This document shows positions 2,636 to 31,188 of a stretch of 64,000 nt of DNA, piece after piece. Every line of letters begins with the position of its first letter. Position 1 is the stretch's first letter. The DNA comes from Verrucomicrobiia bacterium (GTDB lineage: Bacteria > Verrucomicrobiota > Verrucomicrobiia > Opitutales > Cerasicoccaceae), in the NCBI GenBank assembly GCA_030425485.1, contig JAUIAM010000007.1, positions 62,001-126,000 on the forward strand. Direction: 5' to 3'. A model generated the notes under the pieces. That model was given only the letters and a program-made list of their open reading frames with translations. It ran no database searches and was not told the origin of the DNA. Position numbers and translations under genes: made by a program.

Positions 2636-5263
2636 ATGTTACCTAATTCTGTATCTTCCGTGGTTCGACTCTTGGCTTATATTGGCACGCTGACAGCAGC
2701 GCTCATGCTTGTGGCAGCTCCTTGCTTTGGAGATGTTGTCGACTTTCAGCAATTGGCGACACAGGACGACTGGGATGCAGGGGTTTCCCGTGTGGCGGGG
2801 CCGGGCGGCGAGGCCTGGTATTTACAGCCGGGGGAGCGGCAATTCATTCCGGTTAAGGGAGTGCGCTTTCCCAAGGAGTATAGCTATGGTGTGTGGTTTC
2901 AGTTTGATCCAGGCGCAACGGACGGCGTGCATTCCTTACTCAGTTCGGACCGCTACCGGAGGTATAATCTCAGCATATTCGACGGTGAAAGTATTGATCT
3001 TAACTACAGCCAAAAGGGAGGCGGACGCGGGCTGTTTCGGGCTGAGTACGATTTTGAACCCGGGCGGTGGTACCAACTGGTGGTGACTCAGGCCAAAGAA
3101 GGTGGGGTTGCCTTTTACGTGAATGGCGAGCTGGTGATGTTTGCAGCTCCGCCTGTGCCTGCTATGGCCTCGTTTCCGGTCGAGTCGATAGGTGCCTACA
3201 GTGTAGATACCGGTAAGTACGATCACTTCTTCCAGGGAAAGATCGGGAGTCCCAAGCTGTATGACTACGTTCTATCTGCTGATGAGGTGCGCGCCTTGTA
3301 TCAGGACGGTACGCGTGTTCCGGCCATCCTGCCTATTCCACAGCAGGCGATTTTCGCAGAGAATGAGGCCCCACTTGCCTTAAGTGGCCTGCGCAACGTT
3401 GTTCTGGAGGACAAATTACTGGACCGCACAACGCCCGCTGTTGTGGAGTTGGTCGGCACGCTAAATGCGGCGACTGGCTATCAGTTGAAGGTCAGTGAAT
3501 CTGCCAGTAATGTTGCCATGTCCATACGTATCCGTAAGGGCGCTGTGCCGCCCGGGCTCTCGGCTGATGCTGCTGCGGAGGCCTATGTCATGCGGGTCGA
3601 TTCTGATGGTATCGAAATCACCGCCCTTACGTCTCGTGGGGCGATGTACGGCATCTATACGCTGCTAAGTTATGTGGAGCTGCACCCGAAGGCGTTGCCA
3701 CAGGTCACGATCAACGATTGGCCGGAGTTTCCTTTTCGCGGCTTTCTTTACCTCGACCATGGCGAGCCGCCCTCCATCGGCACAAAGGAGATTCAGAGAG
3801 ATATGCGTAAACTGATTCCGAGACTGTCCAAGCATCGCATCAATCAGTTGCAAATACGCTGTGTCGACTGGATTCTGCTTGAGGATCCAGAGGTTGCCCA
3901 GGCGGTGCGTGAGTTGATTCAGTACGCTGAGACGTACCACGTAGACATCGCGCCGCTGAGCCGCAGCTACGGCCATGCGAAGGGATTTTTGTGGAAAGAC
4001 CTGCGGACGGGCCACACGGATACCATCTATGACGAGCAGGTCGCGCTAGCAGGAGACGAGGCGGTCGCCCTGAGTGTGCGCAATGTTATCGTGACAAACA
4101 ATACCCCCATCGTGATCAAGGCAGCTGATGGCACAGTTTATGAAGAGGGTGAAGACTACGAGGTCATCAATGGTGAGCTGAAGACGGAGTGGGACCACCC
4201 GCCGAACACTCCGTCTCCCTGGTCGCGTCCACGCCTGCTTGAGACTAATGAGCCGTGGCGTATTCGTCGTCTCGATGACGGAAGGATTACGGATGGGGAA
4301 ATTGTCGCCGTTACCTACGATGTGCCGCGTGTGCTGCGTGGGCAGGGGCATGGCGCCTACAACCCGTTTAGCGAGTACACCCGCGAGATTCAGAGCACGA
4401 GCCTGAGACTGATGGAGGAGCTGCTGAGAGATGATACACTCGAGAGCAAATACCTGAACCTCGGGCTTGATGAAATCTGGACACTAAAGGGGGAAGGGCG
4501 CTCGGATGCTGAACGTGATCTTAGCGAAGAAGAGATGTTTGTCTACGAGGCCAATCTGCTGTCGGAAGAAATTCAGGCTAACAACCCCTCGCGGCGGCTG
4601 ATGATCTGGAGCGACATGCTCGATCCACGGCAGACGCCGAGCTGGAAGCAAACCCTGGATGTGGAGGCGATGGTAACCGCTGACTTGAGTCGCGATATTA
4701 TCCTGATGCCCTGGTACTATGGCTCGGATTCGAGGTCGATCACCAGCATCTATGGCAGCTTGCGTTATTTTACTGAGGAGGGCTTTAGCCTCGCGGGGAC
4801 GAGTGGTCATGACCCACTGAATAATCTGCTCTGGGGAGAAGCTTTGCTTTATACAAAGTACGACCTCATGGGGGACCCCGAGGGAATGCTCTACACCACT
4901 TGGGCGCATGGTGGTGGTGACAAGATGATCGGGCTGTCTGCATTTACGCAGGCGACTTGGTCCCCGGGGCAAGTACGGGTAGAAGCCGCCCTGGAGCTGG
5001 CGGAACTGCTGCGTCAGGCTGGGCTGGGGGGCGCCATTACCCGAAAGAAGTGGGACCCGGAGTCTGTTGATTTCGCGGCACTGAAAGCATTTCCAGACAA
5101 GGGGCTGATTCCCTGGATGTTGCGTGCCTCCCTGGCTGAGGTGCAGCAAGACATGCTGTTTATGGGCGCTGATCGCCTGACCGTACTCAAGCGAGCAGGT
5201 TTTGATATCCCGTTTTACTCTGGTCTTGGCTTGGCTTGGCTGGAGCATGCACAAGCCAGGTAG
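2636..5263 (+). CDS. Secreted LamG + GH20-like glycoside hydrolase
   Basis: An 875-aa protein with a signal peptide (about residues 1-32, ending near PCFG). Residues ~55-225 look like a LamG/concanavalin-like carbohydrate-binding domain (YYGVWFQFD-type start, YVNGELV, ALYQDG end). Residues ~235-360 fit the beta-hexosaminidase N-terminal domain (glyco_hydro_20b; SRGAMYGIYTLLSYVE), followed by a TIM-barrel start at WPEFPFRGF. Asp612-Glu613 in LNLGLDEIW match the catalytic Asp-Glu pair of GH20, although the usual H-x-G-G preceding residues are replaced. Residues ~482-565 appear to be an inserted beta-rich segment. The likely substrate is a beta-linked N-acetylhexosamine glycan, but this is uncertain. 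It is flanked by LacI and AraC regulators. No C-terminal sorting signal is visible. Confidence 0.75.
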   Translation: MLPNSVSSVVRLLAYIGTLTAALMLVAAPCFGDVVDFQQLATQDDWDAGVSRVAGPGGEAWYLQPGERQFIPVKGVRFPKEYSYGVWFQFDPGATDGVHSLLSSDRYRRYNLSIFDGESIDLNYSQKGGGRGLFRAEYDFEPGRWYQLVVTQAKEGGVAFYVNGELVMFAAPPVPAMASFPVESIGAYSVDTGKYDHFFQGKIGSPKLYDYVLSADEVRALYQDGTRVPAILPIPQQAIFAENEAPLALSGLRNVVLEDKLLDRTTPAVVELVGTLNAATGYQLKVSESASNVAMSIRIRKGAVPPGLSADAAAEAYVMRVDSDGIEITALTSRGAMYGIYTLLSYVELHPKALPQVTINDWPEFPFRGFLYLDHGEPPSIGTKEIQRDMRKLIPRLSKHRINQLQIRCVDWILLEDPEVAQAVRELIQYAETYHVDIAPLSRSYGHAKGFLWKDLRTGHTDTIYDEQVALAGDEAVALSVRNVIVTNNTPIVIKAADGTVYEEGEDYEVINGELKTEWDHPPNTPSPWSRPRLLETNEPWRIRRLDDGRITDGEIVAVTYDVPRVLRGQGHGAYNPFSEYTREIQSTSLRLMEELLRDDTLESKYLNLGLDEIWTLKGEGRSDAERDLSEEEMFVYEANLLSEEIQANNPSRRLMIWSDMLDPRQTPSWKQTLDVEAMVTADLSRDIILMPWYYGSDSRSITSIYGSLRYFTEEGFSLAGTSGHDPLNNLLWGEALLYTKYDLMGDPEGMLYTTWAHGGGDKMIGLSAFTQATWSPGQVRVEAALELAELLRQAGLGGAITRKKWDPESVDFAALKAFPDKGLIPWMLRASLAEVQQDMLFMGADRLTVLKRAGFDIPFYSGLGLAWLEHAQAR

Positions 5264-5424
5264 GGACTGCTCCGGGGGAACACAGCGCTTGTATTGATCG
5301 CCTGAAATTGATATGCGTGATCTATGTTTCCTTCTGCTGCATGGTTAACGAATGGTAGCGATTCAGGCTTAACGGTGGATTCGCTAAGGCTGAACATCCA
5401 TTCTCCATTAGCGGGGGCCACGGT

Positions 5425-6375
5425 ATGAGTATAAAGCTATGCTCCTTTAGCTCTTCGGTGTTCCCATTAACAAGTATCTCGGACCAATATGTGCAGGTAG
5501 ACCGTGGTCAAAATCTAACAGTAAAATCTACCGAATACCGTGTGGTATTCTTCCTGGGAGATAGCATACGCATGTCCGTAAAAGACGGCCCCAGTTTCGA
5601 TATTATGAGCGGAGATGCGTGCGCTATCGGACCGAATATCGAGGTAGAGTACAGTCCTGTACCGGGCGTGAGGCAGGCGCAGAATCATGTGCTTGTGGTC
5701 AGGCTTTCGCGTGACTTACTGGATGATCACGCATACATGAAGCTGGAGCATAAAGGCGGGACTTGGGCGCCGTTTCTATTGCAGTTGAAGCCATCTTTTG
5801 ACGTTAAGCATTTTCCGCAACTTCTTAAAGAAGAGGGGGCCAGGGAGGTTGTTCAATTGATTCGCGTGCACTTAAATGGAAGCGGAAGTAGCGCGGACTG
5901 GAAAGTCAGTAGCTTATGCTACGCCTTGCTGGCATACCTGCCGGACAACCAATGTGCAGAGGTAAATCGTGCCGCATCGATTGATCGCGGGGCGGCGTCT
6001 GTTCGGCATGCCTGTCATTATATCCAGGAGCATTTTAAGGAGAAGCTGACCCTTTCCGCCATTGCGTGGGCGGTACAGTTGAGCGGTGAGCACCTGGAGC
6101 GACTGTTTAAGAAACACCTTGGCATAACGGTATTTGAATACCTGCACCGCCAGCGAATCGGGGAGGTAAAAAAGCTTCTTCAGACAACGGATTGGTCGGT
6201 TGCGCAGATTGCGCAGGCCTCGGGCTATTCGTCGTCAAATTTGCTCGGTAGACACTTCAAATCGCGCACGGGAATGACGGCTGTTGCGTACCGTATGGAC
6301 ACCAGGAAAAGGGAAATTCTCTCGCCGAGCAAAATTGATGAGACAGGTCATGAACTTGTTTCGCAATATCAATAA
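5425..6375 (+). CDS. AraC-family transcriptional regulator
   Basis: A 316-aa protein whose C-terminal ~100 residues form the double helix-turn-helix of AraC regulators: first HTH around LTLSAIAWAVQLSGEHLERL, second around VAQIAQASGYSSSNLLGRHF, followed by the typical R-x-G-M-T-A-x-x-YR ending. The N-terminal ~180 residues are a cupin-like sensor domain without a recognisable ligand motif. It lies between the secreted glycosidase and the first of two LamG/PEP-CTERM genes, all on the same strand, so it may regulate either side. The effector is unknown. Confidence 0.9.
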   Translation: MSIKLCSFSSSVFPLTSISDQYVQVDRGQNLTVKSTEYRVVFFLGDSIRMSVKDGPSFDIMSGDACAIGPNIEVEYSPVPGVRQAQNHVLVVRLSRDLLDDHAYMKLEHKGGTWAPFLLQLKPSFDVKHFPQLLKEEGAREVVQLIRVHLNGSGSSADWKVSSLCYALLAYLPDNQCAEVNRAASIDRGAASVRHACHYIQEHFKEKLTLSAIAWAVQLSGEHLERLFKKHLGITVFEYLHRQRIGEVKKLLQTTDWSVAQIAQASGYSSSNLLGRHFKSRTGMTAVAYRMDTRKREILSPSKIDETGHELVSQYQ

Positions 6376-6504
6376 CAGGCGATGAATGCAAAGGCCAGTA
6401 TATTTACATTCTGGCAGATAAATGGTACACTTTCGTCATGGAGGTTTGGGTTTTATGAAACCTGACAAGCTCTAACTATCACCCCAATAACCTATAGACA
6501 TACT

Positions 6505-7386
6505 ATGGAACGAAAGATACTGACGACTCTCTCTGCTGTGCTCATGCTGCTGGCCGTGGGCCAGCCAACAGTCAATGCGGCTACGGTTGGCTATTGGCGC
6601 TTTGAAGAGGGTAATTTCCTGGGCGATTCCAGCGGGAATGGCTACACACTTACCAACGGAACAATGAGCGCAAGTGTTACACAGACGACTCCGCTTCCAA
6701 GCGCGGGTAATGGTTCCGATTTCTTTAACCCCGTTCCCCAGACGGGTGCAGTGAACAATGGCCTTGGGAGTAAAGGCGCGGACGCGGCATTTTTGCGTTC
6801 GGGTGTTTTCGACCTAAATGCTATGTCAGCGACAGAGACTTACTCGGTAGAGATGCTGGTGAATGTTTCCAGTGTGAGTGGTAATGCCTTCATCATGTCT
6901 TATTATGATACGTCGGAGACGCGCTCATGGATCATGCAACTGACCTCTGCTCGTGAGCTGAATTTCCAAGTCAGCGAGACGGGCTCAGGTTATACGATTG
7001 CAGACCCTGGTATTACTCTGGACCTGAATACGGACTACTATCTCGGTGTCGTGGTTGACCTGACATCGGCCGTACAGGCAGAGCGAAGCGTTACCTTCTA
7101 CCTGCAGGACCTGACCAATGGCGGCGCTTTGACCTCCACCATCGTCGATAATTATGCTCCAGAGACGACGTTTGCCTCGAATGATACCGGTATCGCAATT
7201 GGGGGCACATACAATATCAGCGGCCTGGCTTCTCGCATTGGACTCTCCTTTGATGAGGTGCGTTATTCCAACGCAGCACTGAGTCAGGGCGAGCTGCTGG
7301 TATCGATTCCGGAGCCTTCCTCGCTCGGCATGCTGGCAGGTCTGCTCGGAGTCGGCCTTGTGCTGCGACGCCGGACAGCTAAGTAA
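6505..7386 (+). CDS. LamG-domain PEP-CTERM surface protein (copy 1)
   Basis: A 293-aa secreted protein: signal peptide (~1-25, ending VNAA), a LamG/concanavalin-like beta-sandwich (WRFEEGNFLGDSSGNGYTL to FDEVRYSNAALSQGEL), and a C-terminal PEP-CTERM signal (IPEPSS, hydrophobic helix GMLAGLLGVGLVL, then RRR). PEP-CTERM proteins are processed by an exosortase and delivered to the envelope or exopolysaccharide; no exosortase lies in this window. The next gene is a close paralog, and both share the A-rich/C-rich leader just before the start codon (CTCTAAC...CACCCC). Role unknown; a carbohydrate-binding surface protein is the natural inference. Confidence 0.85.
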   Translation: MERKILTTLSAVLMLLAVGQPTVNAATVGYWRFEEGNFLGDSSGNGYTLTNGTMSASVTQTTPLPSAGNGSDFFNPVPQTGAVNNGLGSKGADAAFLRSGVFDLNAMSATETYSVEMLVNVSSVSGNAFIMSYYDTSETRSWIMQLTSARELNFQVSETGSGYTIADPGITLDLNTDYYLGVVVDLTSAVQAERSVTFYLQDLTNGGALTSTIVDNYAPETTFASNDTGIAIGGTYNISGLASRIGLSFDEVRYSNAALSQGELLVSIPEPSSLGMLAGLLGVGLVLRRRTAK

Positions 7387-7634
7387 GGCTGCGCTAGCAT
7401 TAGTTTTTCTCGATTAACGGCTGGTCGTTCTGTTTAACAGGCGGCCAGCTGTCTTGTTTATGGAATGCTATGTTTGCGGTGAGTGATAACGTCTATGGGG
7501 GTTCGTTCTGTGCTCGGTTTGTGCGCCGTCACCTGAGCAACCATTTTCCAAGAAAGTATTAGGGTTGTAGTTTAGCGGTTTTACGATTTAATCACATCTG
7601 CCTGACTCTAACACCCCATCAACCCGAATAGACT

Positions 7635-8519
7635 ATGAAACGAAAGACACTAACCACACTCTCAATTGCGCTTCTACTACTAGCTGTGGGGCAGCCCTGC
7701 CTGAGTGCAGCTACAATTGGCTACTGGCGTTTTGAGAATGGTAACTTTCTCGGAGATTCCAGTGGCAACGGCTACACGCTGTCGGATGGTACGAGTACGT
7801 TGGTAACTCAGACCACACCGCTCCCTGGCGCGGGTACGGGTTCACATTTCTATAATCCCATTCCCCAGACTGGTGCCGCAAATAATGGCCTGGCGACCAA
7901 AGGACTAAACAATTCGTTCCTGCGCTCCACTGTGATTGATTTGGAAGCAGTTTCAGCCACTCAGACATATACGTTTGAGATGCTCTTTAACATCACAGAG
8001 TATGCGAATAAAAACAGCTTTCTCGCCAGCTATTATAATTCTGATGAAGCCCGTTCATGGGTAATTCAGATTACGGAAACGCGTGGTCTGAATTTTCAAG
8101 TGAGCAACACGGGGGTAGGTTATATCATTGCGGATTCCGGCATGACTCTGGACCTGAACACAGACTACTACCTCGGTGTGGTGGTGGACTTGACTTCGGC
8201 TATCCAGGCAGAGCGCAGCGTTACCTTTTACCTGCAGGATCTCACCAATGGTAGCGCATTGTTCTCCACCGTAGTGGATGATTACGCACCCAATACGACC
8301 TTCGCTGCGGACAATACCGGGATCGCGCTTGGCACTGCCTACAACCGAAGCGACCTTTCCGACCGGATCGGTGTTTCCTTTGACGAGGTGCGCTTTTCCA
8401 ATACCGCGCTGAGCGAAGGCGAGCTCTTGGCATCGGTCCCTGAGCCCTCAGCTTCCGCCTTGCTGGCTGGTCTGATAGGCATTGGCCTGGTGCTGAGGCG
8501 TCGCGCTACGAAGCCCTAG
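7635..8519 (+). CDS. LamG-domain PEP-CTERM surface protein (copy 2)
   Basis: A 294-aa paralog of the preceding gene: same signal peptide pattern (starts MKRKTLTTLS versus MERKILTTLS), same LamG-like domain, same VPEPSAS + hydrophobic helix + LRRR sorting tail. The two proteins are alignable end to end without large gaps, and short stretches after both stop codons are also alike (CTGGTCGT-CTGTTT), so the pair arose by tandem duplication of gene plus flank. Divergence is spread evenly, suggesting both copies have been kept under selection. Exosortase substrate by family; function unknown. Confidence 0.85.
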   Translation: MKRKTLTTLSIALLLLAVGQPCLSAATIGYWRFENGNFLGDSSGNGYTLSDGTSTLVTQTTPLPGAGTGSHFYNPIPQTGAANNGLATKGLNNSFLRSTVIDLEAVSATQTYTFEMLFNITEYANKNSFLASYYNSDEARSWVIQITETRGLNFQVSNTGVGYIIADSGMTLDLNTDYYLGVVVDLTSAIQAERSVTFYLQDLTNGSALFSTVVDDYAPNTTFAADNTGIALGTAYNRSDLSDRIGVSFDEVRFSNTALSEGELLASVPEPSASALLAGLIGIGLVLRRRATKP

Positions 8520-8732
8520 GCAGAAACGTTTTTCAACTGAGTCGCTGGTCGTACTGTTTCACCGCTGGCTACTTTCTATTGTGTATGCCCGCGCTACAGT
8601 CGGTGGACAACCGACACAAAACGCACAAGCTAACCTAACACTAGCCGGGTGCAGCTACCGACTTCTATCCGAACTGCGGGCAAATACATAAGCCTTAAAA
8701 AAACCTGATAAGCAGGAACTAAGGAAAGTAAA

Positions 8733-8817
8733 TGGTGCTCAGGGAGGGATTCGAACCCTCACACCTTGCGGCACTGCCGCCTGAAGACAGCGTGTCTGCC
8801 AATTCCACCACCTGAGC
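8733..8817 (-). tRNA. tRNA-Leu(CAG)
   Basis: On the minus strand an 85-nt cloverleaf can be folded: acceptor stem GCTCAGG/CCTGAGC, discriminator A, encoded CCA, D-arm GGTGGAATTGGCAGACA, anticodon stem CTGTC/GGCAG with loop TTCAGGC (anticodon CAG), a long variable arm (typical of type II tRNA) and T-arm with GGTTCGAATCC. The same acceptor stem occurs in the tRNA-Leu(TAG) at 31102. Confidence 0.97.
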
Positions 8818-8894
8818 AGCCGGGGAAACGAGAAACAAAAAGCTTGTGGGGCCCCCGTGTCAATGCCTTTGCGTGAGAATTTTGCGCAATTCCT

Positions 8895-9638
8895 TTACTC
8901 CCCCTGTGAGAGATAATCCGGGATATGGGGCAAGGTTTGCTCAAACTGCCCCGAGGGCAGGCGCGCGAGGTAGGGGTCGCTCTGCGGGGTGAGGTCAACG
9001 GGCTCGTCCGGCAGCTCGTCCTCGTCCCAGTTCATGTCCTCGATGATATCGGTCTCATCGAAAAAATGGCTGATGCGGCGCGGCTCGTCGTCAAGCACGG
9101 TCAGGGGTTGGTCGAGCTTGCCTTTTTTGACCATGGTAAAAAGGCAGGGGAAGTATCGTTTCTCGAAACCGAGCTGGAAGTTGCGTATCCATTTATTGGA
9201 TACGTTTTCGCGGCGGTTCAGCAGAACGGCGTCGGCGAAGTGGATTGCGGCTTCGTGCCAGGGGTCCAGCGCGGGCTGAGTCTCGGCTAACTGGCAGTCT
9301 ACCACGACCATGACCCGTGAGAGCTCCAGGCGGTAGGCCTTGAGCCAGGCCTTAAAGGCTTCGAGTTGATCGCGAAAGTCTCGCGTCGTATTGAGCAGGA
9401 AAAAGACCGTGCTCTCGGCCCCGGGGGAGGGTGCGCTATTGGCGTCAATACCATCCCAATTGATCAGGTCGACATTGCCGAGGGCGGCCAGTTGCTCGTC
9501 GAAGGGGGAGTCCGGCTCTGGCTCGCTGACAAAGATGTCGCAGGGCTCGCCGCTGTCGATCCCCTCGGAGATAAGGTTAAACAGCACCTCGCGCCGACCG
9601 GAGCCGGGGATGCCAATGATGAGATATGCGCCGGGCAT
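8895..9638 (-). CDS. Degenerate G3E/CobW-like P-loop protein, downstream of aroC
   Basis: A 247-aa protein. The order of motifs matches the GTPase domain of the COG0523/CobW group: a glycine-rich loop GIPGSGRRE (residues ~9-17), a Walker B-like hydrophobic strand ending in Asp (VMVVVD), and ADAVLLNRREN where NKxD is expected. The P-loop lysine is replaced by arginine, and the specificity motif is altered, so nucleotide hydrolysis is doubtful. No metal-binding CxCC motif is seen. The C-terminal ~70 residues are acidic (IIEDMNWDEDELPDE). The start codon lies four bases after the aroC stop, so it is almost certainly co-transcribed with aroC. Function unknown; the family call is tentative. Confidence 0.6.
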   Translation of the reverse strand: MPGAYLIIGIPGSGRREVLFNLISEGIDSGEPCDIFVSEPEPDSPFDEQLAALGNVDLINWDGIDANSAPSPGAESTVFFLLNTTRDFRDQLEAFKAWLKAYRLELSRVMVVVDCQLAETQPALDPWHEAAIHFADAVLLNRRENVSNKWIRNFQLGFEKRYFPCLFTMVKKGKLDQPLTVLDDEPRRISHFFDETDIIEDMNWDEDELPDEPVDLTPQSDPYLARLPSGQFEQTLPHIPDYLSQGE

Positions 9639-9641
9639 GGG

Positions 9642-10757
9642 TTACGCCTCCGGTTGGTGGCTGCGGGCCTGCTGGGCCATCCAGTTATCCATCAGGACGA
9701 GCCACGTCATAGCCTCGACGATGGGGACGGCGCGAGGAACAACGCATGGGTCGTGGCGCCCGCGACCCATGAGCTCGGTTTCGGTACCGTCCTTATCCAC
9801 GGTTTCCTGAGACTGGAGGATGGTCGCGGTGGGCTTGAAGCCGACACGGAAGTAAAGCTCCTCACCATTGCTGATACCACCCTGCACGCCTCCGGAGCGA
9901 TTGCTGCGGGTGCGGATCTGGCCGTCGCGGTTTTCAAAGACATCATTGTGCTCAGAGCCCTTGAGTAGCGTACCGGCAAAGCCGCTGCCCACCTCAAAGC
10001 CCTTCGTTGCTGGGAGGGAGAGCATGGCTTTGCCCAAGTCTGCCTCCAGGCGGTCAAAGACGGGTTCGCCCAGGCCGACGGGCAGGCCCTTTACGCGGCA
10101 GACGATGACGCCTCCGACGGAGTCGCCCTGCGAACGCGCTTCCTTGATGCGGGCAATCATCTGCTCGGCCAGGGCGGGGTCTGGGCAACGTACGGCGGTC
10201 TGCTCGACGGATTCGAGGCTGGGAAAGGGTAGCGCGGGGGCCTCACCCGTGCCAAAGTCCGGCATGGCAATGTCGTGAATGCGCTCGACGTAGGCGCGCA
10301 CCTCGATCTTGGACTGGGCGGACAAGGCTTTTGCCGCGATGGCTCCGGCGGCAACGCGGCCGATGGTTTCGCGGGCGGAGGAGCGCCCGCCGCCCTCGTG
10401 GTTGCGGATGCCGTACTTGGTCTGGTAGGTGTAGTCCGCGTGCGAGGGGCGGTACTTGTCCTTCATTTCACTGTAGGCCTGCGGACGGTGATCCGAGTTG
10501 GGTACGGTAATGGCGATCGGGGTGCCGAGGGTTTTGCCTTCGTAGGTGCCGGAGACGATGGTGGCCGTATCGGTCTCCTTGCGGGGCGTGCTGATGTCAC
10601 TTTGACCCGGCTTGCGGCGGTCCAGTGCGGGCTGGATGTCTGCCGCAGCATCGAGGGGAATGTTCGACGGGCAGCCGTCCACGACAACGCCGATGCCCCC
10701 GCCGTGGCTCTCGCCCCAGGTGCTAATGCGAAAATACTTTCCGAAAGTGTTACCCAT
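9642..10757 (-). CDS. aroC: Chorismate synthase
   Basis: A 371-aa enzyme converting 5-enolpyruvylshikimate-3-phosphate to chorismate with reduced FMN, the last step of the shikimate pathway, in the cytoplasm. The start at 10757 gives the canonical N-terminus [19 protein letters not shown] (first signature with catalytic His). Further family signatures follow: [10 protein letters not shown] and a C-terminal [15 protein letters not shown] region. The frame is open upstream but that part is non-conserved. It follows two small HTH-containing genes by 37 bp and is followed after three bases by a G3E-like gene, so a four-gene minus-strand unit is likely. Confidence 0.95.
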
Positions 10758-10794
10758 TGCCGTACGATGACGATGCCCCCGGGCGGGTAAAAGT

Positions 10795-11136
10795 CTAAAA
10801 TTGCCGGGCGATGAATCCGCTGAGGGACTGCTGGACCTTTTCCAGTTCGTTCCGGGTGCGATGGCGGAGCAGGGTCGTGACGCGATCGAGAAAATCGTCT
10901 GGCTCGTAGTTAGCCGTTTCCAGAAGGAAGAGCAGGAGCCCGTCGCGGTGGATCTGGTAGTTTTTACGGCGCACGTTGCGCGAGCGGCCATTGGCCGCGT
11001 GGCCAAGGATGCGCTGGTTGTCAAAGGCATCGCGTACGTACTGGTCCGAGCGGCCAATGATGGCGGCAACTTCCTTGGGGGAAAACCATTCCTGATTTTC
11101 GGGCAGGAGAAAGGAAAAATGATCGTTCAGTTTCAT
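10795..11136 (-). CDS. Small HTH-domain protein upstream of aroC
   Basis: A 113-aa protein starting MKLNDHFSF. Residues ~14-50 ([20 protein letters not shown]) form a predicted helix-turn-helix of the MerR/excisionase-like (HTH_17) type, followed by a basic segment ([16 protein letters not shown]) that resembles the wing, and a C-terminal helical region. The ATG at 11136 is chosen because upstream in-frame residues lack conserved character and would overlap the preceding gene. It sits between a 77-aa gene and aroC, opposite a divergent XRE regulator. Likely DNA-binding; target unknown, perhaps the intergenic region at 11381-11565. Confidence 0.7.
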
Positions 11137-11146
11137 GGCGTGGCTG

Positions 11147-11380
11147 TTAGGTACAGGGGCTGAGAGGTTTTTGATAGCGCATGGCGAGTTTGATCGCGTG
11201 CGATTGTTGCTCGATGCTGCGCAGGGCGCGGGCCTGCTCACGCAGTTGTCCGGCCATGCTTTCACTGGGAAGGAATTCAGCGAGATCTTCGTAAAGGTTT
11301 GCCCGGCAGGTAAGGGGCTCGGATTCGAGTTTGCACAGGACGTAGTCGACCAGGCGGTTAGCAGCAGATGGGTGGGTCAT
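11147..11380 (-). CDS. Small hypothetical protein, first gene of the aroC-side unit
   Basis: A 77-aa protein (MTHPSAANRLVDYVLCKLES...) predicted to be all helical, with no recognised domain. The ATG at 11380 is the first plausible start; the longer open frame reads through the AT-rich promoter region. It ends 10 bp before the start of the next small HTH gene and is transcribed divergently from the XRE-type regulator at 11566. Codon usage is consistent with a real gene, but the evidence is mainly position and composition. Confidence 0.55.
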   Translation of the reverse strand: MTHPSAANRLVDYVLCKLESEPLTCRANLYEDLAEFLPSESMAGQLREQARALRSIEQQSHAIKLAMRYQKPLSPCT

Positions 11381-11440
11381 GAGATCAAATGGCTTTCGTG
11401 AGGCAAAAATGCGTAAGTTAAAGATTGGATTGGTTATTAG

Positions 11441-11455
11441 TACTATAATATAGTA
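11441..11455. promoter_or_regulatory. Perfect palindrome TACTATA-A-TATAGTA in divergent promoter
   Basis: A 7-bp perfect inverted repeat with a one-base centre lies in the AT-rich 185-bp space between two divergently transcribed units, one starting with an XRE regulator. TATAAT within it (11444-11449) could itself be a -10 box. A second, shorter dyad TGGAA-ATA-TTCCA lies at 11498-11510. The position fits an autoregulated operator for the XRE protein; this is inference. Confidence 0.5.
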
Positions 11456-11565
11456 TAAGTATGTTTTTGATTGTCTAATATTGCGATAGAACAATACTGG
11501 AAATATTCCATTTGTAAATAGTAAAAATGTAATTATTCTACTCTGTGATAGAAAATACCTGCGCC

Positions 11566-12066
11566 ATGTCCCACTCAAGCAACCACACCTCAGTCGAGCC
11601 AGAGCAGTTCAGTATGCGCTTTCGCATGCTCATGAGTTACCACAACCTAACCCTTAAAGACATCGCTGAACATACGCAAAATGCGGTTTCCACGGTGGGT
11701 ACGTGGAAAAACGGCCGCGTTCCTTCTTCGGAGGTGGCACGTAATGCTTTGGCGAATATATTCCATGTTAGTGTAAATTTTCTACTCTACGGAAAATGTG
11801 AGCCTGAGAATGTCGAGCGTGAATCGGCGATGTACTCTGTGCTCAACAGTATCGATTCCGTCGTGGGAGAGCCTGACGGGCAATCGGAGGTGCGGGAGCC
11901 CGCTGCTTCCCTCAAACAAGATGAGGTGCCGTATCGGCGGGATTTGATTGAGCGCTATTTGAAGCAGTTTCTGGATCAGGCTGAGAGTGAGCCTGGCGGG
12001 CTGGCACATACCTGGTATCACCTGCGACGGGAGTTTCCCCTGGATCTGTTTTCCCGCCTGCATTAG
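11566..12066 (+). CDS. XRE-family (Cro/CI-like HTH) transcriptional regulator
   Basis: A 166-aa protein with an N-terminal lambda-repressor-like HTH (residues ~15-75: FRMLMSYHNLTLKDIAEHTQ, VSTVGTWKNGRVPSSEVARN, ANIFHVSVNFLLYG). The remaining C-terminal part has no recognised peptidase or ligand motif and ends in a predicted helix. I start at the ATG at 11566; an in-frame GTG at 11545 would add seven residues. It diverges from two small genes, one of them also HTH-bearing, across an AT-rich spacer with palindromes. Such an arrangement resembles a phage-type switch, but no phage genes are nearby. Confidence 0.8.
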   Translation: MSHSSNHTSVEPEQFSMRFRMLMSYHNLTLKDIAEHTQNAVSTVGTWKNGRVPSSEVARNALANIFHVSVNFLLYGKCEPENVERESAMYSVLNSIDSVVGEPDGQSEVREPAASLKQDEVPYRRDLIERYLKQFLDQAESEPGGLAHTWYHLRREFPLDLFSRLH

Positions 12067-12183
12067 TAGCAGCCAGGTCTCCGGGTATTCTTTTCATGTA
12101 CTCGGACTTGTGTGTTTTTATACCTGAAATTTATCGCTTAGGGTTGAAAGCGGTGCGGATCGCCTCCATCATTTGATGCACAC

Positions 12184-13272
12184 ATGCAGTACAATCAACT
12201 GGGGCGTAGCGGTCTGCGGGTGTCCAAGCTCTGTCTTGGCACCATGACCGGGTTTAACGGGGAAGATCAGGCAATGAGCAATCGCATCGTGAGCGAAGCG
12301 ATTGACGCCGGGATCAATTTCATCGATACGGCGGATTGCTATAAGGGGTCCGAGGAAACACTGGGCAAGGCCCTGAAAGCAGATGGTCGGCGGGATCAGG
12401 TTGTTTTGGCCACGAAGTTCGGCTGGTACACCGGTGAGGGGCCCAACGACTACGGATCGAGTCGCCACCACATTATCAATGCCTGCGAGCGCAGCTTGCG
12501 TCTACTGCAAACGGACTATATCGACCTGTATATCCAGCACGTCGTCGATGCCAATACGCCCTGGGAGGAAACGATTCTTGCCCTGGACACCCTCGTGCGG
12601 CAAGGGAAGGTGCGCTACATTGGCTGCTCAAAGCATCCTTCCTCCATGATTGTCGAAGCTCTCTACGAAAGCCAGCGACTTGGCGCGGCGCGGTTCATCA
12701 GCGAACAGCCGCCCTACAACCTGCTGGATCGCAGCCCGGAGAATGAACTCATCCCGACCTGCCAACGCCATGGGGTGGGCATTACGCCCTTTGCGCCGAT
12801 TGCCGCAGGGCTGCTGACCGGAAAGTATCAGGTGGAGCAGTCGGCTGAATCCGGTCGCTTCGCCAAGCGCAACCCGAGTAAGAACGGGCCTTTCACGCCA
12901 GAGGCCATTGAAGCCGTCCAGCAATTGGTACCGCTGGCCGAGGCCCGTGGCGTTAGCCTGGCCGAGTTTAGCATGGCCTGGGTTATGCAGGCGCCGGGCG
13001 TCAGCTCTGTGGTGCTGGGGGCCCGCACGCCCGAGTACCTGGCATCGGGGGTCAGTGCTGGTGAGCTGGTGCTCACCGAAGATGAGCTCGCCGCTATTGA
13101 CGAAATCGTGCCGCCTGGTACTGCCGTGAGCAACTACTACGAAGCGAATATCTACCGACCGTTTCGCATGGGATTTTCTTCCCGGGCGCGTTCTGCGGGA
13201 GCGGGGGCATTTGTGCCCGATAACCAAACGGGTTCGGGGAAGTTTGCCGGCAGGCCCGAGAAGCCGTCATAG
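12184..13272 (+). CDS. Aldo/keto reductase
   Basis: A 362-aa NAD(P)H-dependent oxidoreductase with the aldo/keto reductase TIM barrel. The catalytic tetrad is visible: Asp48 (INFIDTAD), Tyr53, Lys78 (LATKFGW) and His119 (YIDLYIQHVVD). The sequence type is that of the YghZ/Tas-like or beta-subunit-K+-channel-like group (LGRSGLRVSKLCLGTMTG start). The last ~35 residues extend past the usual end and look disordered. It is a single gene with no obvious operon partner; the physiological aldehyde or ketone substrate cannot be predicted. Confidence 0.92.
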   Translation: MQYNQLGRSGLRVSKLCLGTMTGFNGEDQAMSNRIVSEAIDAGINFIDTADCYKGSEETLGKALKADGRRDQVVLATKFGWYTGEGPNDYGSSRHHIINACERSLRLLQTDYIDLYIQHVVDANTPWEETILALDTLVRQGKVRYIGCSKHPSSMIVEALYESQRLGAARFISEQPPYNLLDRSPENELIPTCQRHGVGITPFAPIAAGLLTGKYQVEQSAESGRFAKRNPSKNGPFTPEAIEAVQQLVPLAEARGVSLAEFSMAWVMQAPGVSSVVLGARTPEYLASGVSAGELVLTEDELAAIDEIVPPGTAVSNYYEANIYRPFRMGFSSRARSAGAGAFVPDNQTGSGKFAGRPEKPS

Positions 13273-13384
13273 CCCCCCTGCGGTTGATGGACTTGCGATG
13301 CATCTCTTCCTTGGCAAATTCGCTGTGATTTTGGAGGATAATTGTCACTTGTTTTTCACGGTGGTATCGCTACGGTAGTGCTTA

Positions 13385-15229
13385 ATGGACCTGCCTGATC
13401 GAGAGACGCCACTGGGGCTTTTTCGCAAGAACATGTCGGGTGGCATGATGGGGGCTGCCTACAAAGCCCTTGGCCCCATGTTGGAAAAGACCCTCAAGTT
13501 GGTTGAGGTGGATCAGGCGTACCTGCGTGTCGCGCAGGACCACAGCACGCCTAACTTCTTTCAACGTGCCATGCGCTCGATGAATATCTCCTACGAAATT
13601 TCGGAGGAGGACCTCGCACGTATTCCACAGGAGGGGCCAGTCATTGCGGTGAGTAATCATCCCTACGGTGGGTTGGACGGGATTGTGCTTGGCGCGATGC
13701 TTTCGTCGGTTCGCGACGATGTGAAGGTGATGGCCAACTACCTGCTGGAGGTCATGGTGGAGATCAAGCCGTGGCTGATCGCGGTGGACCCCTTTGAGCG
13801 CCCCGAGTCGGCCCGCTTTAACATCAGGGCTATCAAGGAAACGCTACGCTTCCTCAGGGACGGCGGCTGTATGGGGACTTTTCCTTCGGGGACGGTATCG
13901 CACTTTCTCTTGCGGCAGTTCCAGATAACAGACCCGCGCTGGAACCCGAACACTGCGGCGCTGGTGCAGAAGTCCAAGGCCACGGTGGTACCGATTTATT
14001 TTGAAGGGCGCAACGGCCCGTGGTTTCAGTTTGCGGGTATGTTCCACGAGCGCATGCGGACGATGCTGCTGCCGCGCGAGATGATCCGCATGATGGGCAC
14101 GACGCTCCACCTGCGGGTGGGTAACCCCATTCCGCATCGGCGCGTAGCGGAGTTTACCAGTAACGAAGAGTTGATCCAGTTCCTGCGCCTGAACACCTAC
14201 ATCCTGGCCAAGCGGGCCAAGGAGACCACGCCGCGCAAGCGTTTTTCCTTTCCGCGTCTGCCGCGTAAGGTCGATGTCGAGCAACCCCTGGCTGAAGCCG
14301 TACCGGAGGAAAAGCTGAGGGAGGAGATCAAGGCTCTGCCTGAGGAGCAGCAGTTGCTTACGCATGGCGATTTTGAAGTGTATTACGCCTTTGCCGCGCA
14401 GATCCCGAATATCCTCGAGGAACTGGGCCGCCTGCGGGAAAAAACTTTTCGCGAGGTGGGCGAGGGGACCGGGGAAGCCTCGGACACGGACCGCTTTGAC
14501 CTTTATTACAGGCACCTCTTCATGTGGGACGAGAAAGCCGGGAAGATCGTCGGGGCGTATCGCATTGGCCTGACCGATGAGATCCTGCTCACCCACGGTC
14601 CGTCCGGCCTCTACACCAGTACGCTATTCAAGTTCAAACCCGGCTTTCTGGAGAAGCTGGACCCGGCGCTGGAGATGGGGCGCTCATTCATCGTGTCGGA
14701 GTACCAAAAGAAGCACGCCACACTTTCGCTCATTTGGCGCGGCATCGGTCACTTTGTCAGCAAGCACCCCCAATACAGCGTGCTTTTTGGCCCGGTCAGC
14801 ATTAGTCAGGAGTACAACGCCATCTCGAAGGACCTGATGGTGAAATTCTTGCGTAAAAACCGTCTGAGCCCCGAGCTGGCCCATCTGGTCAAGGCCAAGA
14901 ACCCACCACGGGGTGGACCGCAGATTCGCGGGAGTGAAAAGAAGGCGCTTTTTGAGTCGGTCAAAAATGTGGATGACGTGTCGGCGCTCATTTCGGAGAT
15001 CGAAACGGACCAGAAGGGCATCCCCGTGCTCCTGCGCCATTACCTGAAAATGAATGGCCAACTGCTGTCTTTCAACGTGGACAATGATTTTGGCTACTGC
15101 GTGGACGGTCTGATCATCGTCGATCTGACCAAGGCAGATATGCGGTTGCTGCGCTCATACATGGGGCCAGAGCGTTGCGAGAAATTCATGGAATTCCACC
15201 AACTCGACCGGGCCGAAGCCGGAGTATAG
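13385..15229 (+). CDS. Bifunctional acyltransferase, OlsF-like (PlsC-type domain + OlsB/GNAT-like domain)
   Basis: A 614-aa fusion. Residues ~60-270 are a lysophospholipid acyltransferase domain of the hemolysin-associated type, with NHPYGGLDG (His92, Asp98) and a later GTFPSGTVS motif. Residues ~330-560 match the OlsB/hemolysin-like N-acyltransferase (GNAT-fold) domain, with the characteristic VGAYRIGLTDEIL and FEMGRSFIV-like (LEMGRSFIVSEYQ) motifs. In characterised OlsF proteins this domain order makes ornithine lipid: the C-terminal domain N-acylates ornithine, the N-terminal domain O-acylates lyso-ornithine lipid. By analogy this protein may make an aminolipid in the inner membrane. Not in an evident operon. 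Confidence 0.8.
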   Translation: MDLPDRETPLGLFRKNMSGGMMGAAYKALGPMLEKTLKLVEVDQAYLRVAQDHSTPNFFQRAMRSMNISYEISEEDLARIPQEGPVIAVSNHPYGGLDGIVLGAMLSSVRDDVKVMANYLLEVMVEIKPWLIAVDPFERPESARFNIRAIKETLRFLRDGGCMGTFPSGTVSHFLLRQFQITDPRWNPNTAALVQKSKATVVPIYFEGRNGPWFQFAGMFHERMRTMLLPREMIRMMGTTLHLRVGNPIPHRRVAEFTSNEELIQFLRLNTYILAKRAKETTPRKRFSFPRLPRKVDVEQPLAEAVPEEKLREEIKALPEEQQLLTHGDFEVYYAFAAQIPNILEELGRLREKTFREVGEGTGEASDTDRFDLYYRHLFMWDEKAGKIVGAYRIGLTDEILLTHGPSGLYTSTLFKFKPGFLEKLDPALEMGRSFIVSEYQKKHATLSLIWRGIGHFVSKHPQYSVLFGPVSISQEYNAISKDLMVKFLRKNRLSPELAHLVKAKNPPRGGPQIRGSEKKALFESVKNVDDVSALISEIETDQKGIPVLLRHYLKMNGQLLSFNVDNDFGYCVDGLIIVDLTKADMRLLRSYMGPERCEKFMEFHQLDRAEAGV

Positions 15230-15438
15230 CAAAAAGTCCTGCGCGACCGGTCCCGTTGGCATTTTCCACCTCGTTGCGACAGATTAAATCGAAGATGCTC
15301 TAAACAGCTTAAAGCAAGTTACTTGTATATCTTTTTAGGGCACCTGCGGGCTGAAATCGCACCATCTGGGTTAAAAACCTCAAAAAGTGGTGATTTTTTT
15401 CTTAAAGTCTTTAGAAATTTAACCGATTAGTGCTCTCA

Positions 15439-16206
15439 ATGAAAGTACGCCTGTTTGCCACACTCATCACTGGAATGCTCGCCGGGGCTGCCTCTGTGCA
15501 CGCTTTAGCGGTTAATTTTACCAGTGGTCCCACCGATACCGCCAACGGATACATCAATATTCCGATTGGTGCTTCGCCGACCATTTACACCAACATCGGT
15601 AACCTCGGTTACGATATTCGCTTTAACTACACCAACAACAGTGTGATCAGCGCCACGTCGGCCCCCTCCACGGACGGTCCGGCCTTTGACTCCGTTCTGG
15701 CGCTGCTTGCGAACAACAGCTTTCTTGAGGTGGAGTTCCTCCAGACGGGTACGAACAACCCCATCAGTGTCCTCGGGGTACAGTTTCGCATCGATGACGT
15801 CGAAGTCGGTGGTGGCACGAACGAGGCTTTAACGGGCTTCAGCTACGTCGATAAGAACGGCAACCTGCAGAATCCGCTCTTTAGCGATACTGACATCTTT
15901 ACCGCTGACCCAGGCACCGTTGTCGACAATGGCGGCACAGAGTTTTACTACGCAGGCCTGAACAGCACCTTCCAGACCGGGCGCGGCACGTTGGTCGACC
16001 TGAGCGAAACCGCTATCCAAAGCTTCCGTATCGAGCGTAATGCTATTGGCAGCGGCACCTCAGCCCTGACGCTTGGTCTGGGTGAGCCTACCCCAATCCC
16101 CTTCGATGGCAGCCCGCTCCTGGGCATGGCTGCAGTAGCGGGTTACCTTGGCTGGCGTGTGCGCCGCAAGAACAATGGTGCTGACGCAGTCGAAGCCACC
16201 GCGTAA
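15439..16206 (+). CDS. Secreted protein with PEP-CTERM-like (PFE/PFD-type) C-terminal anchor
   Basis: A 255-aa protein with a signal peptide (MKVRLFATLITGMLAGAASVHA) and a beta-rich, Asn/Thr/Gly-rich ectodomain with no recognised family. The C-terminus has TPIPFDGSPLLGM, a hydrophobic helix and RRK, i.e. the three-part layout of exosortase/archaeosortase-type sorting tails, but with PFD-GSP in place of PEP, resembling the PFE-CTERM variant known from cyanobacteria. A short tail (NNGADAVEATA) follows the basic cluster. I start at the ATG at 15439; an in-frame GTG at 15430 is also possible. It is followed by a good rho-independent terminator. Confidence 0.75.
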   Translation: MKVRLFATLITGMLAGAASVHALAVNFTSGPTDTANGYINIPIGASPTIYTNIGNLGYDIRFNYTNNSVISATSAPSTDGPAFDSVLALLANNSFLEVEFLQTGTNNPISVLGVQFRIDDVEVGGGTNEALTGFSYVDKNGNLQNPLFSDTDIFTADPGTVVDNGGTEFYYAGLNSTFQTGRGTLVDLSETAIQSFRIERNAIGSGTSALTLGLGEPTPIPFDGSPLLGMAAVAGYLGWRVRRKNNGADAVEATA

Positions 16207-16234
16207 CCAGTTCCCCAAGGCGTAACTTTCGATC

Positions 16235-16268
16235 GGCCTGCCCCACACCCGGGGCGGGCCGTTTTTTT
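16235..16268 (+). terminator. Rho-independent terminator after PFE-like anchored protein gene
   Basis: GGCCTGCCCC (16235-16244) pairs with GGGGCGGGCC (16251-16260), leaving a 6-nt loop, followed by a run of seven T residues (16262-16268). Confidence 0.92.
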
Positions 16269-16418
16269 GCACCTAGTGACTAAGGGACTATCGTGTCCGA
16301 GGCTTACTCAGATGTCCGCGGAATTACTTGCGCACATTTGCCCAATCTACAGACAGAAGGTCTCTAATGTTCTACTGGTAAGCTCGATCCGGTATCGGGC
16401 TTGTCCAGGGAAGGTTTG

Positions 16419-19400
16419 CTACTCCTCGCTTTGCTTCAACTTGTGAATAGGCGAGTCCGTTTCGATGTGCAGCGTGCGCTGCGGGTAGGGGATGTTGATC
16501 CCTTCTTCGCGGAATCGCTTGATAATCGCGTGGTTGATCGCGCTTTGTGTGCCGAGGCGGTTGTCCATGTTGGCAAGGTAGGCGAAGCAGATGAAGTTAA
16601 GCGATGAGTCGGCCAACTCGGTAAAGAACACTCGCGGTTCGGGGTCGGCAATGACATCAGGCATGCTTTTGAGGATGCTCATGAGCACTTCGGTGACCTT
16701 GTCTGTATCGCTGTCGTAGTTGACGCCGACGTTGATCTTGAGGCGTGTGAGCGTGTCCGAGAGCGTCCAGTTGATCAGCTTGCCGGTAATGATCGTCTTG
16801 TTCGGCACAATGACTTCGCGCCTGTCAAACTCGTTGATCGTGGTGCCGCGAATACGTATGCGGGAGACGACGCCCGTCGTGTCGTCGATGGTAACAATGT
16901 CGCCCACGCGAATCGGACGCTCGAAGAGCAGGATGATACCCGCCACGAGGTTGCCAAAAATCTCCTGCATGCCAAAGCCCAGGCCAACCGTAATCGCAGC
17001 GATGAGCCACTGCACCTTGGCCCATTCTACCTGAATGATGAAGCTGGCCCAAATCACGCCCAGCAGAACGATGAAGTAGGCGACCAGGGTTGAGAAGGCG
17101 TGTCGGTTACCCGGGGTGATTCCCTTGATTCGCCGGAAAACCACGATCTCGATCACGCTGGGGAGATTGATCGCGAGAACAGCCGTCGTGATGCAACATA
17201 TGATGAGCATGGTCAACTGACCGAGCTTGAAATAGGGGTCGTCCGCGGTTCCCAGCAGGGCGGTATCGCCAAGTGTGCGGAAAGCTGGCAGCGCGCTGCG
17301 CCAGATGAAGACAAAGCCTATGGCAAAAATAACGATGCGCAGGAGGTTCAGGATATGCCGGACCTGTGGGTCGATTTCGCGCCATTTGCTATCGTCTACG
17401 ATGTCGCTGTTCTCCTGCTTGGCTTCCTCCTCCTTTTGCTGGAGCATGGCCTGGTAGCGATTGAGGCGGATGTAGCGCGTGAGCACGCCGTCCAGGATGG
17501 CTATCCCGGCAAAGAGCCAGACGGTCTGCATGGTCGAGCGAATCATGGCCATGACCCCCACCATGTAGCCGAGTGCAATCAGCATGGTGAGTAAACTAAT
17601 CCATAGCAGGATGCCCACGTAGGCCGACCAGCGCAGCGAGCTGTGGCGAAACAGTCCGAAGCGGATGCCATCCGCCCCCAGGATGCCCCGCAGGGGATGA
17701 AATACCCGGTGAAAGGCCCACAGCAGCAAGCACATGGCCGAAATATACAGTACGCGAGAGCCCGTGATGGTCTCAAACTCTATTCCGTAGAAGTAGAGGA
17801 AATTTGCCACGATGGCGACGACGTAGGCGGGCAGCATGATACGCTTGATCGTCGAGTTGATGACCGTGCACGACTGGCTGCTCCAGCGAAAGTGCAAGGC
17901 GCCGAGGTTATCGTGACGCGTAAGACGGTAGAGCACGACGAGCGAGATCGTGCCAGCTATAATGCCGAGGCAGGCCTGCGCCACGGCGTCAGCAAACTCA
18001 TTGTCCACGCTGGGAGCATTGACCGTCCAGGCGACACCGATCAGGAATACGACTGGCAGCAGCCCGAGGAAGCACTCGAAGAGCAGTAAGAGCAGCGTAT
18101 CGGTGAACTTGCTCTGTCCGAGCGGACGCTTGCGAATGGGGCGTAATGGTTTGGCCACACGGTAGGCCACAATGGCCATTGCCAGCACTGCGAGGATGGA
18201 AATGACCAGCCGTTCAGTTGCGTCACTAAAGACGTTGTCGGCCAAGTTTAAGGTCCGTGTCAGGACAATCCGTAAGATCGAGGGCAGGATGCGCAGGTCC
18301 TCGCGCGAAATCGGTTCCTGGTCAGGAATCCAGAGCGCATTCTCCGCTGTAAAGGCATCGAACGACTCGATGGCCTGCATGGCATCAAGGGCTTCGGTGT
18401 CGGTGGCGATGAGTTGCTCAAAGTAATGGTTGGTGTCGCTCAGCAGTCCTTCGAGGATGTCTTTCCGCTGGTTGAGCAGTTCCTGGATCAGCTTGCCCGT
18501 GACTTCCTCTGCATTCGGGTCTGCATGGTCGGAAATATGGGATTCAGTCGATCGAAGCAGCTCCTCGTAGGTCAAGTTGCGTTGGCGGGCGCTTTCCAGA
18601 TCGAAGAGCGTGAGTTGGGCCTTGCGGATGGCTTCGCTGTACAGGTAGCGCTGGTCCTTGATGTCCTCAATATCGGGCAGGCGACGGCTTTCACGCTGGA
18701 GGAGTTCGCCCACAGATTGGGAATAGCCGGAAATGGCCATCCGCTGCTGGAGTTGTTCTAGCCTGAGTTGGATGTCCGAGGTAGTTTTTTCGTACTCGCT
18801 CGACTGCTCTGAGAGCACGTCGATCTTGTGCGTCAGGTCTTTGCGCTGCTCGATCCAGCGCTGATTCTGCTGCGCGAGTTCCTTCAGCGCGGGGTGCTCC
18901 ATGGCTGCCGCGCGGAGGGTATCGCGCACTTTACTTTCCTGCTCGCGCAGGGCGCTGCTGCGCAGGGCGTCCACATGGTCTTCCAGCAACGAAATACTCT
19001 GGCTCATGCGGGAGACTTTGGCCTCATTCAGAGAACGCTGGGCGGTGCGGTAGGCCTTACGCTGGTCGGACGAAGCCGCTTTTCTCTCCAGGAGCTGGAT
19101 GTGGACCATGAGCTCCTGTATCTTGGCCTTGCGGGCCAGCCGGTCCGGGAAGTCGCCCCCGGTTTGCTTCTTTAAGTCGGCCAGGCGGGCGCGCAACTCA
19201 TTCAGGGCATTGGCGACCTGGAGCTTCTCCTCCGTGAAGCCGGAGATCTGGGCTTGTAAGTTTTGGCCGACCGTAGTGAGCGCGTCGAGGTCAAGCTTGA
19301 GCTTATTGAGCATGCTCTCGGCTTCGCTCAGCGTATTGGGAAAGTCTTTGAGCGGCTCTTGCTCCTGCTCAAGCTTGGCCTGCTCAGTCAAGGTTTCGGT

Positions 19401-19854: not shown

Positions 19855-19928
19855 TGGCAGGCTCGCAGGGACTCGAACCCCGACAGATGGAACCAGAATC
19901 CATAGTGCTACCATTACACCACGAGCCT
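19855..19928 (-). tRNA. tRNA-Gln(CTG)
   Basis: A 74-nt minus-strand cloverleaf: acceptor AGGCTCG/CGAGCCT, discriminator G with encoded CCA, D-arm with GGTAGCAC, anticodon stem ATGGA/TCCAT and loop TTCTGGT (anticodon CTG), T-arm GGGGTTCGAGTCCC. Confidence 0.96.
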
Positions 19929-31101: not shown

Positions 31102-31188
31102 GCTCAGGTGGCGGAATTGGTAGACGCACTGGACTTAGGATCCAGTGGCCGCAAGGCCGTGCAGGTTCAAGTCCTGTCCTGAGCACCA
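31102..31188 (+). tRNA. tRNA-Leu(TAG)
   Basis: An 87-nt type II tRNA: acceptor GCTCAGG/CCTGAGC, discriminator A, encoded CCA; D-arm GGCGGAATTGGTAGACG; anticodon stem CTGGA/TCCAG with loop CTTAGGA (anticodon TAG); long variable arm; T-arm with GGTTCAAGTCC. Confidence 0.97.

Follow-up and report, generated by a model that had tools for sequence, protein, structure and literature searches.

The Pseudomonas aeruginosa pairs PrtR/PrtN and AlpR/AlpA each combine an XRE-type repressor with a small activator, and in both pairs the repressor carries a LexA-type cleavable domain. In the Pseudomonas prophage Pf4, the divergent genes xisF4 and pf4r repress each other, and auto-activation was also shown (PMC7379572). 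There, a common control region drives a C-type repressor gene one way and an Xis-type gene the other, which makes Pf4r/XisF4 the closest tested precedent for the locus reported here. The excisionase RdfS drives excision of the element ICEMlSym together with an integrase, and the winged-helix proteins RdfS and BldC, the latter a small Xis-like chromosomal protein of Streptomyces, are described as coating DNA with little sequence demand (PMC11963761).

The window analyzed here is a stretch of 64,000 nucleotides from a Verrucomicrobiia genome of 3.8 Mb in 62 contigs, and all coordinates given without a contig refer to it. An AT-rich control region separates a plus-strand XRE gene, followed by genes for an aldo-keto reductase and an acyltransferase, from a minus-strand p77-HTH113 operon, downstream of which lie aroC and p247 (Table 1). 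The gaps are 10 nt between p77 and HTH113 and 37 nt between HTH113 and aroC. A first-pass annotation had described a Cro/CI-like gene opposite a 77-aa and a 113-aa HTH gene leading on into aroC, and the ORF calls bear this out; its range of 11147-12066 takes in XRE and p77 but omits HTH113. Its statement that phage genes are absent agrees with a Pfam search of 13 proteins encoded from 2636 to 19778 in the window (small ORFs were outside this set): none belongs to a phage or integrase family, of the kind that a switch of this type would be expected to have nearby. The locus differs from Pf4 in its extra gene p77, in that no phage, integrase or replication gene was found beside the trio and in being kept across families; it differs from RdfS in that no integrase was found. 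We consider it somewhat probable that the locus is a domesticated chromosomal C-repressor/Xis-type divergent switch, autoregulated via a conserved dyad, next to which aroC has been captured in one genus.

Table 1. Features of the XRE/p77/HTH113 locus in the window.
Feature	Position	Strand	Description
XRE	11566..12066	+	166 aa, Cro/CI-type HTH regulator (ORF call)
p77	11147..11380	-	77 aa, predicted three-helix protein
HTH113	10795..11136	-	113 aa, predicted Xis/BldC-type winged-helix protein, extended at the C-terminus by two more helices
aroC	9642..10757	-	Chorismate synthase, Pfam 1.6e-134
p247	8895..9638	-	Neighbor of aroC (p247 in 22/30 aroC loci)
O1, ATGTAATTATTCTAC	11527..11541		Conserved dyad, proposed XRE operator; unnamed in the first-pass annotation
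Near-invariant block	11513..11554		Contains O1; from the alignment of the four genomes of the genus
Dyad CTGGAAATATTCCAT	11498..11512		Same type as O1; between the promoter-like hexamers of the p77 operon
Promoter-like TTTACA-16-TATTGT	11491..11518	-	Directed toward p77; consensus match only
Dyad TACTATA-A-TATAGTA	11441..11455		Perfect dyad of the first-pass annotation; unconserved in the genus

Alignment searches of 372 genomes sampled from the host order, one order of Verrucomicrobia, detected XRE in 36 (E <= 1e-6) and HTH113 in 81 (E <= 1e-5). In a sample of the phylum (n=387) HTH113 was found in seven genomes, all of the same order, and single-sequence searches of 54 relatives yielded HTH113 in 28, XRE in 12 and p77 in seven. 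The two small ORFs, whose conservation the first-pass annotation had put up for checking, are conserved in relatives. Some of the gene maps came from automated ORF picks, which sometimes chose antisense frames, and were used only where backed by homology or Pfam. HTH113 is divergent from and adjacent to XRE in 31 of the 36 XRE-bearing genomes; 27 of these cases were read in loci (the window, G001 and 25 of 28 further loci) and four by coordinates (G058, G096, G117 and G128). In two of the other five, G123 and G168, HTH113 is invisible because the contig stops within or just after p77. G192 (L097) has XRE, with radC occupying the position of the missing p77 and HTH113, and represents a case in which the regulated side of the switch was lost in nature. 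G048 and G370 hold weak XRE matches with no adjoining HTH113. XRE alone in G192 and the lack of an adjacent HTH113 in G048 and G370 count against the switch reading, as does HTH113 occurring without XRE in 27 of the 70 rows of the HTH113 tree, some of them close to contig ends. p77 accompanies the XRE/HTH113 pair in host families f1, f25 and f27, and none was detected in the f17 and f18 loci read. Within the genus, identity to the window orthologues is 79-81% for HTH113, 65-69% for p77 and 82-84% for aroC, so HTH113 is under roughly the same constraint as a housekeeping enzyme. Family f27, with genomes of 0.6-1.1 Mb, has HTH113 in 10 of 14 genomes and contributes 13 genomes to the XRE matches; a regulator kept in genomes of this size is likely to matter.

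The perfect dyad TACTATA-A-TATAGTA exists and is the sole match to its sequence in the window at <= 2 mismatches, but the other three genomes of this genus have not kept it. When this 184-nt stretch was shuffled 1000 times with dinucleotides preserved, 63 shuffles held a dyad with exact arms of at least 7 (spacer 0-3); we rejected the named dyad as the key operator. For this palindrome the outcome is the one that the first-pass annotation gave as refuting, absence from orthologous loci. A second dyad had been mentioned without a position, and the candidate found for it, CTGGAAATATTCCAT (11498-11512), is not shared by any of the other genomes of the genus. In its place, a 15-bp pattern, GTRKAA-NNN-TTMYAC, of which O1 is the window copy, recurs across the control regions. 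Since the pattern was taken from these same regions, the first count of it is not independent, and a matrix was built from five f1 and f18 sites and scored on the other families with 500 shuffles per region. Of 39 control regions listed, nine one-base-shifted copies were dropped and 30 scored, 24 of them from outside f1 and f18. In 20 of these 24 loci the matrix found operator-like sites at p < 0.05, a test held out for content only, because the regions had been seen before width and spacing were chosen. The f17 group, consisting of nine loci labelled f17 plus L139, L155 and L156 (no family label, inside the f17 clade of the HTH113 tree), reached p <= 0.006 in all 12 loci, and both f25 loci reached p 0.002. 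Six of ten f27 loci were significant at p < 0.05; the other four, which weigh against the switch reading, were nonsignificant, and the best f27 site is displaced away from the XRE start. The promoter-like pair toward p77 is weak evidence because five such pairs occur in 1651 bases against 1.5 expected. Genome-wide, the dyad pattern was found at 67 places with <= 2 mismatches versus 30 for a backward control. Among the sites inspected, those with 0 or 1 mismatch, one lies inside the XRE gene itself (11771-11785); it is not kept in G002, G003 or G005 and was set aside as probably due to chance. The five others are all inside open frames, so that no regulon can be named.

The first-pass annotation found the connection to chorismate synthesis unexpected. 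As a gene neighborhood it holds in the genus, where aroC lies directly downstream of HTH113 in all four genomes, but it is not general. Of 42 places found with aroC, 30 were read; among those 30 the trio adjoins aroC only in the four loci of the genus, while aroC and p247 are neighbors in 22. Also, nine of the 12 genomes without an aroC match retain HTH113 (G015, G021, G024, G033, G034, G037, G042, G050 and G051), and three of these nine also have XRE (G033, G037 and G050). Eight of the nine are 90-95% complete, and G024 is 64% complete. These figures bear directly on whether XRE or HTH113 is a dedicated aromatic amino-acid regulator that senses an aromatic metabolite and accordingly controls aroC, or, in the sister genus, aroB. 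Such control would agree with the constant position of aroC in the genus, with the sister genus (G005, L060 7381-8502), where the trio is followed by aroB in place of aroC, and with G018 of another family (L069), in which HTH113, located where a contig ends, precedes aroC and p247. It fits poorly with the aroC-less genomes, with the four of 30 aroC loci, with the neighbors in other genomes (dapF, radC, LysR, a ribD-like deaminase and MTHFR) and with the Pfam search, which returned no ligand domain for XRE or HTH113. We regard a dedicated aromatic regulator as improbable and rejected an aro-specific role on the aroC-less genomes and the few aroC loci with the trio. HTH113 without aroC, together with the trio at so few aroC loci, argues for aroC as a captured neighbor, probably co-transcribed with HTH113 in the genus; it is also possible, with low probability, that shikimate genes came under control of the switch separately in two genera. 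The module does not serve aromatic synthesis in general, and adjacency to aroC need not imply its control.

XRE was recognized through its HTH. Its Pfam matches (HTH_31, HTH_26, HTH_19 and HTH_3) are every one under cut-off; the best match to phage repressor PHROGs reaches 1.4e-09, again through the HTH, and profile matches to XRE chains such as DdrO cover the HTH region. Matches to the RstR repressor (18.7 vs 80 bits) and to RmrA and HamA are weak. Whereas PrtR and AlpR have a LexA-type domain, no S24 peptidase domain was matched in XRE by Pfam at E <= 1, and the Pfam search assigned no sensor domain to its C-terminus, a point against the switch reading.

HTH113 is predicted from its structural model to have the phage Xis/BldC-type winged-helix fold. 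The model (mean pLDDT 83.3, residues 50-56 unsure) has helices at 20-27 and 31-39, strands at 46-49 and 58-63, a helix at 64-74 and then two more helices. Among 994 re-aligned PDB chains, beyond which further relatives are possible, Xis and BldC chains fill the top three rows (Z 7.1, 6.7 and 6.7): the mycobacteriophage Pukovnik Xis (Z 7.1, rmsd 1.9, 56 aligned) and BldC (6AMK and 6AMA; Z 6.7, rmsd 1.2, 51 aligned, 12-13% identity), which lacks the two further C-terminal helices of HTH113. The excisionase RdfS (8DGL) scored Z 5.2. BldC is not known to have a divergent XRE partner. Among viral proteins the best fold match was an unnamed one at E 3.6e-4; HTH and excisionase proteins were matched as well, as were AlpA and PrtN, the small activators of the P. 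aeruginosa pairs. Several results weigh on the other side: structural Z values of 5-7 are middling, no match of Foldseek against the PDB reached E 0.001 (the hits were chiefly MarR and MerR chains with E of 0.01 and above), the score to HTH_17 (PF12728) of 16.3 bits is below the gathering cut-off of 27, and the collection of viral contigs scanned with HTH113 yielded no relative. A single-sequence search of the PDB found nothing, and the only three matches of the HTH113 alignment to the PDB (E 0.026 to 0.68) were taken as chance.

Alternatively, HTH113 may be a constitutive nucleoid-type protein, with XRE as a merely fine-tuning autoregulator and no bistable switch. Families f7, f26 and f28, which have HTH113 without a detected XRE, would be explained in this way, and BldC and RdfS, as characterized in PMC11963761, offer a model of DNA coating with weak sequence demand. 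A purely constitutive HTH113 would hardly account for the divergence kept in 31 of 36 XRE genomes or for the conserved dyad, and we regard it as rather unlikely.

p77 is modelled with helices at 6-18, 23-36 and 40-68 (mean pLDDT 84.7) and matched no family in Pfam, PHROGs, NCBIfam or PADLOC. An XRE gene and small genes across a dyad, with flanking genes that differ between families, also recall a toxin-antitoxin-like module, in which p77 or HTH113 would be the toxin and XRE the antitoxin and repressor. Toxin-antitoxin pairs are usually co-directional and form a single operon, whereas XRE is divergent here. Neither p77 nor HTH113 matched a toxin family in Pfam, NCBIfam or PADLOC, p77 was not seen in f17 and f18, the tree groups by host family, and G192 retains XRE without its partners; taken together these points make a toxin-antitoxin module quite improbable.

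Under the switch reading, an XRE dimer would bind the GTRKAA-NNN-TTMYAC dyad and hold down both its own and the divergent promoter. Some signal would lift repression, upon which p77 and HTH113 would be made; HTH113, serving as an activator or in an architectural role, may then coat or bend DNA both at the switch itself and at other sites. The most likely role of p77 is that of a helical partner modulating XRE or HTH113, and in the genus aroC would probably be read from the same transcript as HTH113. The impression of a genetic switch given by the first-pass annotation thus keeps its footing in the divergent synteny, the conserved dyad and the predicted phage-type fold of HTH113, but the palindrome it named is not the conserved element. 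No literature title was found that names the XRE/p77/HTH113 trio in the host order.

Relatives of HTH113 also occur in mobile elements. L074 (in G047) lies one gene upstream and L076 (in G032) directly upstream of MuA-like transposases; the downstream genes match the phage transposase family phrog_310, which we read as MuA-like, and AAA_22/TniB-type ATPases (MuB-like). L077, also in G032, was assigned by its gene cluster. HTH113 relatives ahead of MuA-/MuB-like genes, as in the early control region of Mu-like phages, indicate that Mu-like elements of the order carry the HTH113 family; the three are only 35-42% identical to HTH113, and no transposase was found near the trio. The HTH113 tree has 70 rows, L058 having been left out of the alignment; it was built from few columns, its bootstrap had not settled, and 24 of its 67 inner branches are open. 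Its well-supported groups mostly consist of rows from one host family, and the phage-type rows form a weakly supported cluster of long branches. The poor resolution and family f1, split into several pieces rather than one group, count against the switch reading. The grouping and the mobile-element relatives make a phage origin of HTH113 and the switch plausible only, and the tree does not give a direction from phage to chromosome. Pairwise identities of XRE and HTH113 are correlated (r 0.79, 30 loci, 0 of 2000 permutations), which speaks for the switch reading, but shared host descent alone would give the same.

If these phage-type parts, with PHROG and viral fold matches and kin upstream of MuA-like transposases, were a degenerate prophage or mobile-element remnant without present function in this genome, the 13 surrounding proteins should not be free of phage and integrase families, HTH113 should not approach aroC in identity within the genus, and neither its retention in genomes of 0.6-1.1 Mb nor the synteny in 31 of 36 genomes with a stop in just two of 36 XRE matches (G033 and G117) would be expected. 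We rejected a mere prophage remnant on the Pfam neighbors and the tree grouping by host family, and consider it very improbable. Beyond the switch reading itself, it is a tentative possibility that an ancestor within the order domesticated a phage-type repressor/Xis switch into a core cellular decision circuit, with HTH113 in a BldC-like, chromosome-wide regulatory role retained even by genomes of about 1 Mb or less and p77 as a new small anti-repressor or co-factor. If true, a lysogeny-type switch would have turned into a fixed cellular regulator, a small circuit of two DNA-binding proteins and one conserved operator that persists even in genomes of 0.6-1.1 Mb.

HTH113 has a second setting in the same genus and family, represented in this genome by G000:C52:25593-25922 (loci L061, L063, L064, L072, L073 and L079-L082). 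Its neighbors there are a small gene of ribbon-helix-helix-like type and a protein of roughly 210 aa with an RHH-like start; the loci were not all read for every part. The "ECK...GQ" stretch of the longer protein looks like a PD-(D/E)XK nuclease core, judged from the residues, and its L064 copy had no Pfam match. Elsewhere in the window, the adjacent proteins at 6505-7386 and 7635-8519 are 69% identical over 294 columns and by their sequences represent a tandem duplication; both match Laminin_G_3, the first with a PEP-CTERM match just under cut-off. Three tRNA genes were located in the window: tRNA-Leu(cag) at 8733-8817, tRNA-Gln(ctg) at 19855-19928 and tRNA-Leu(tag) at 31102-31188.
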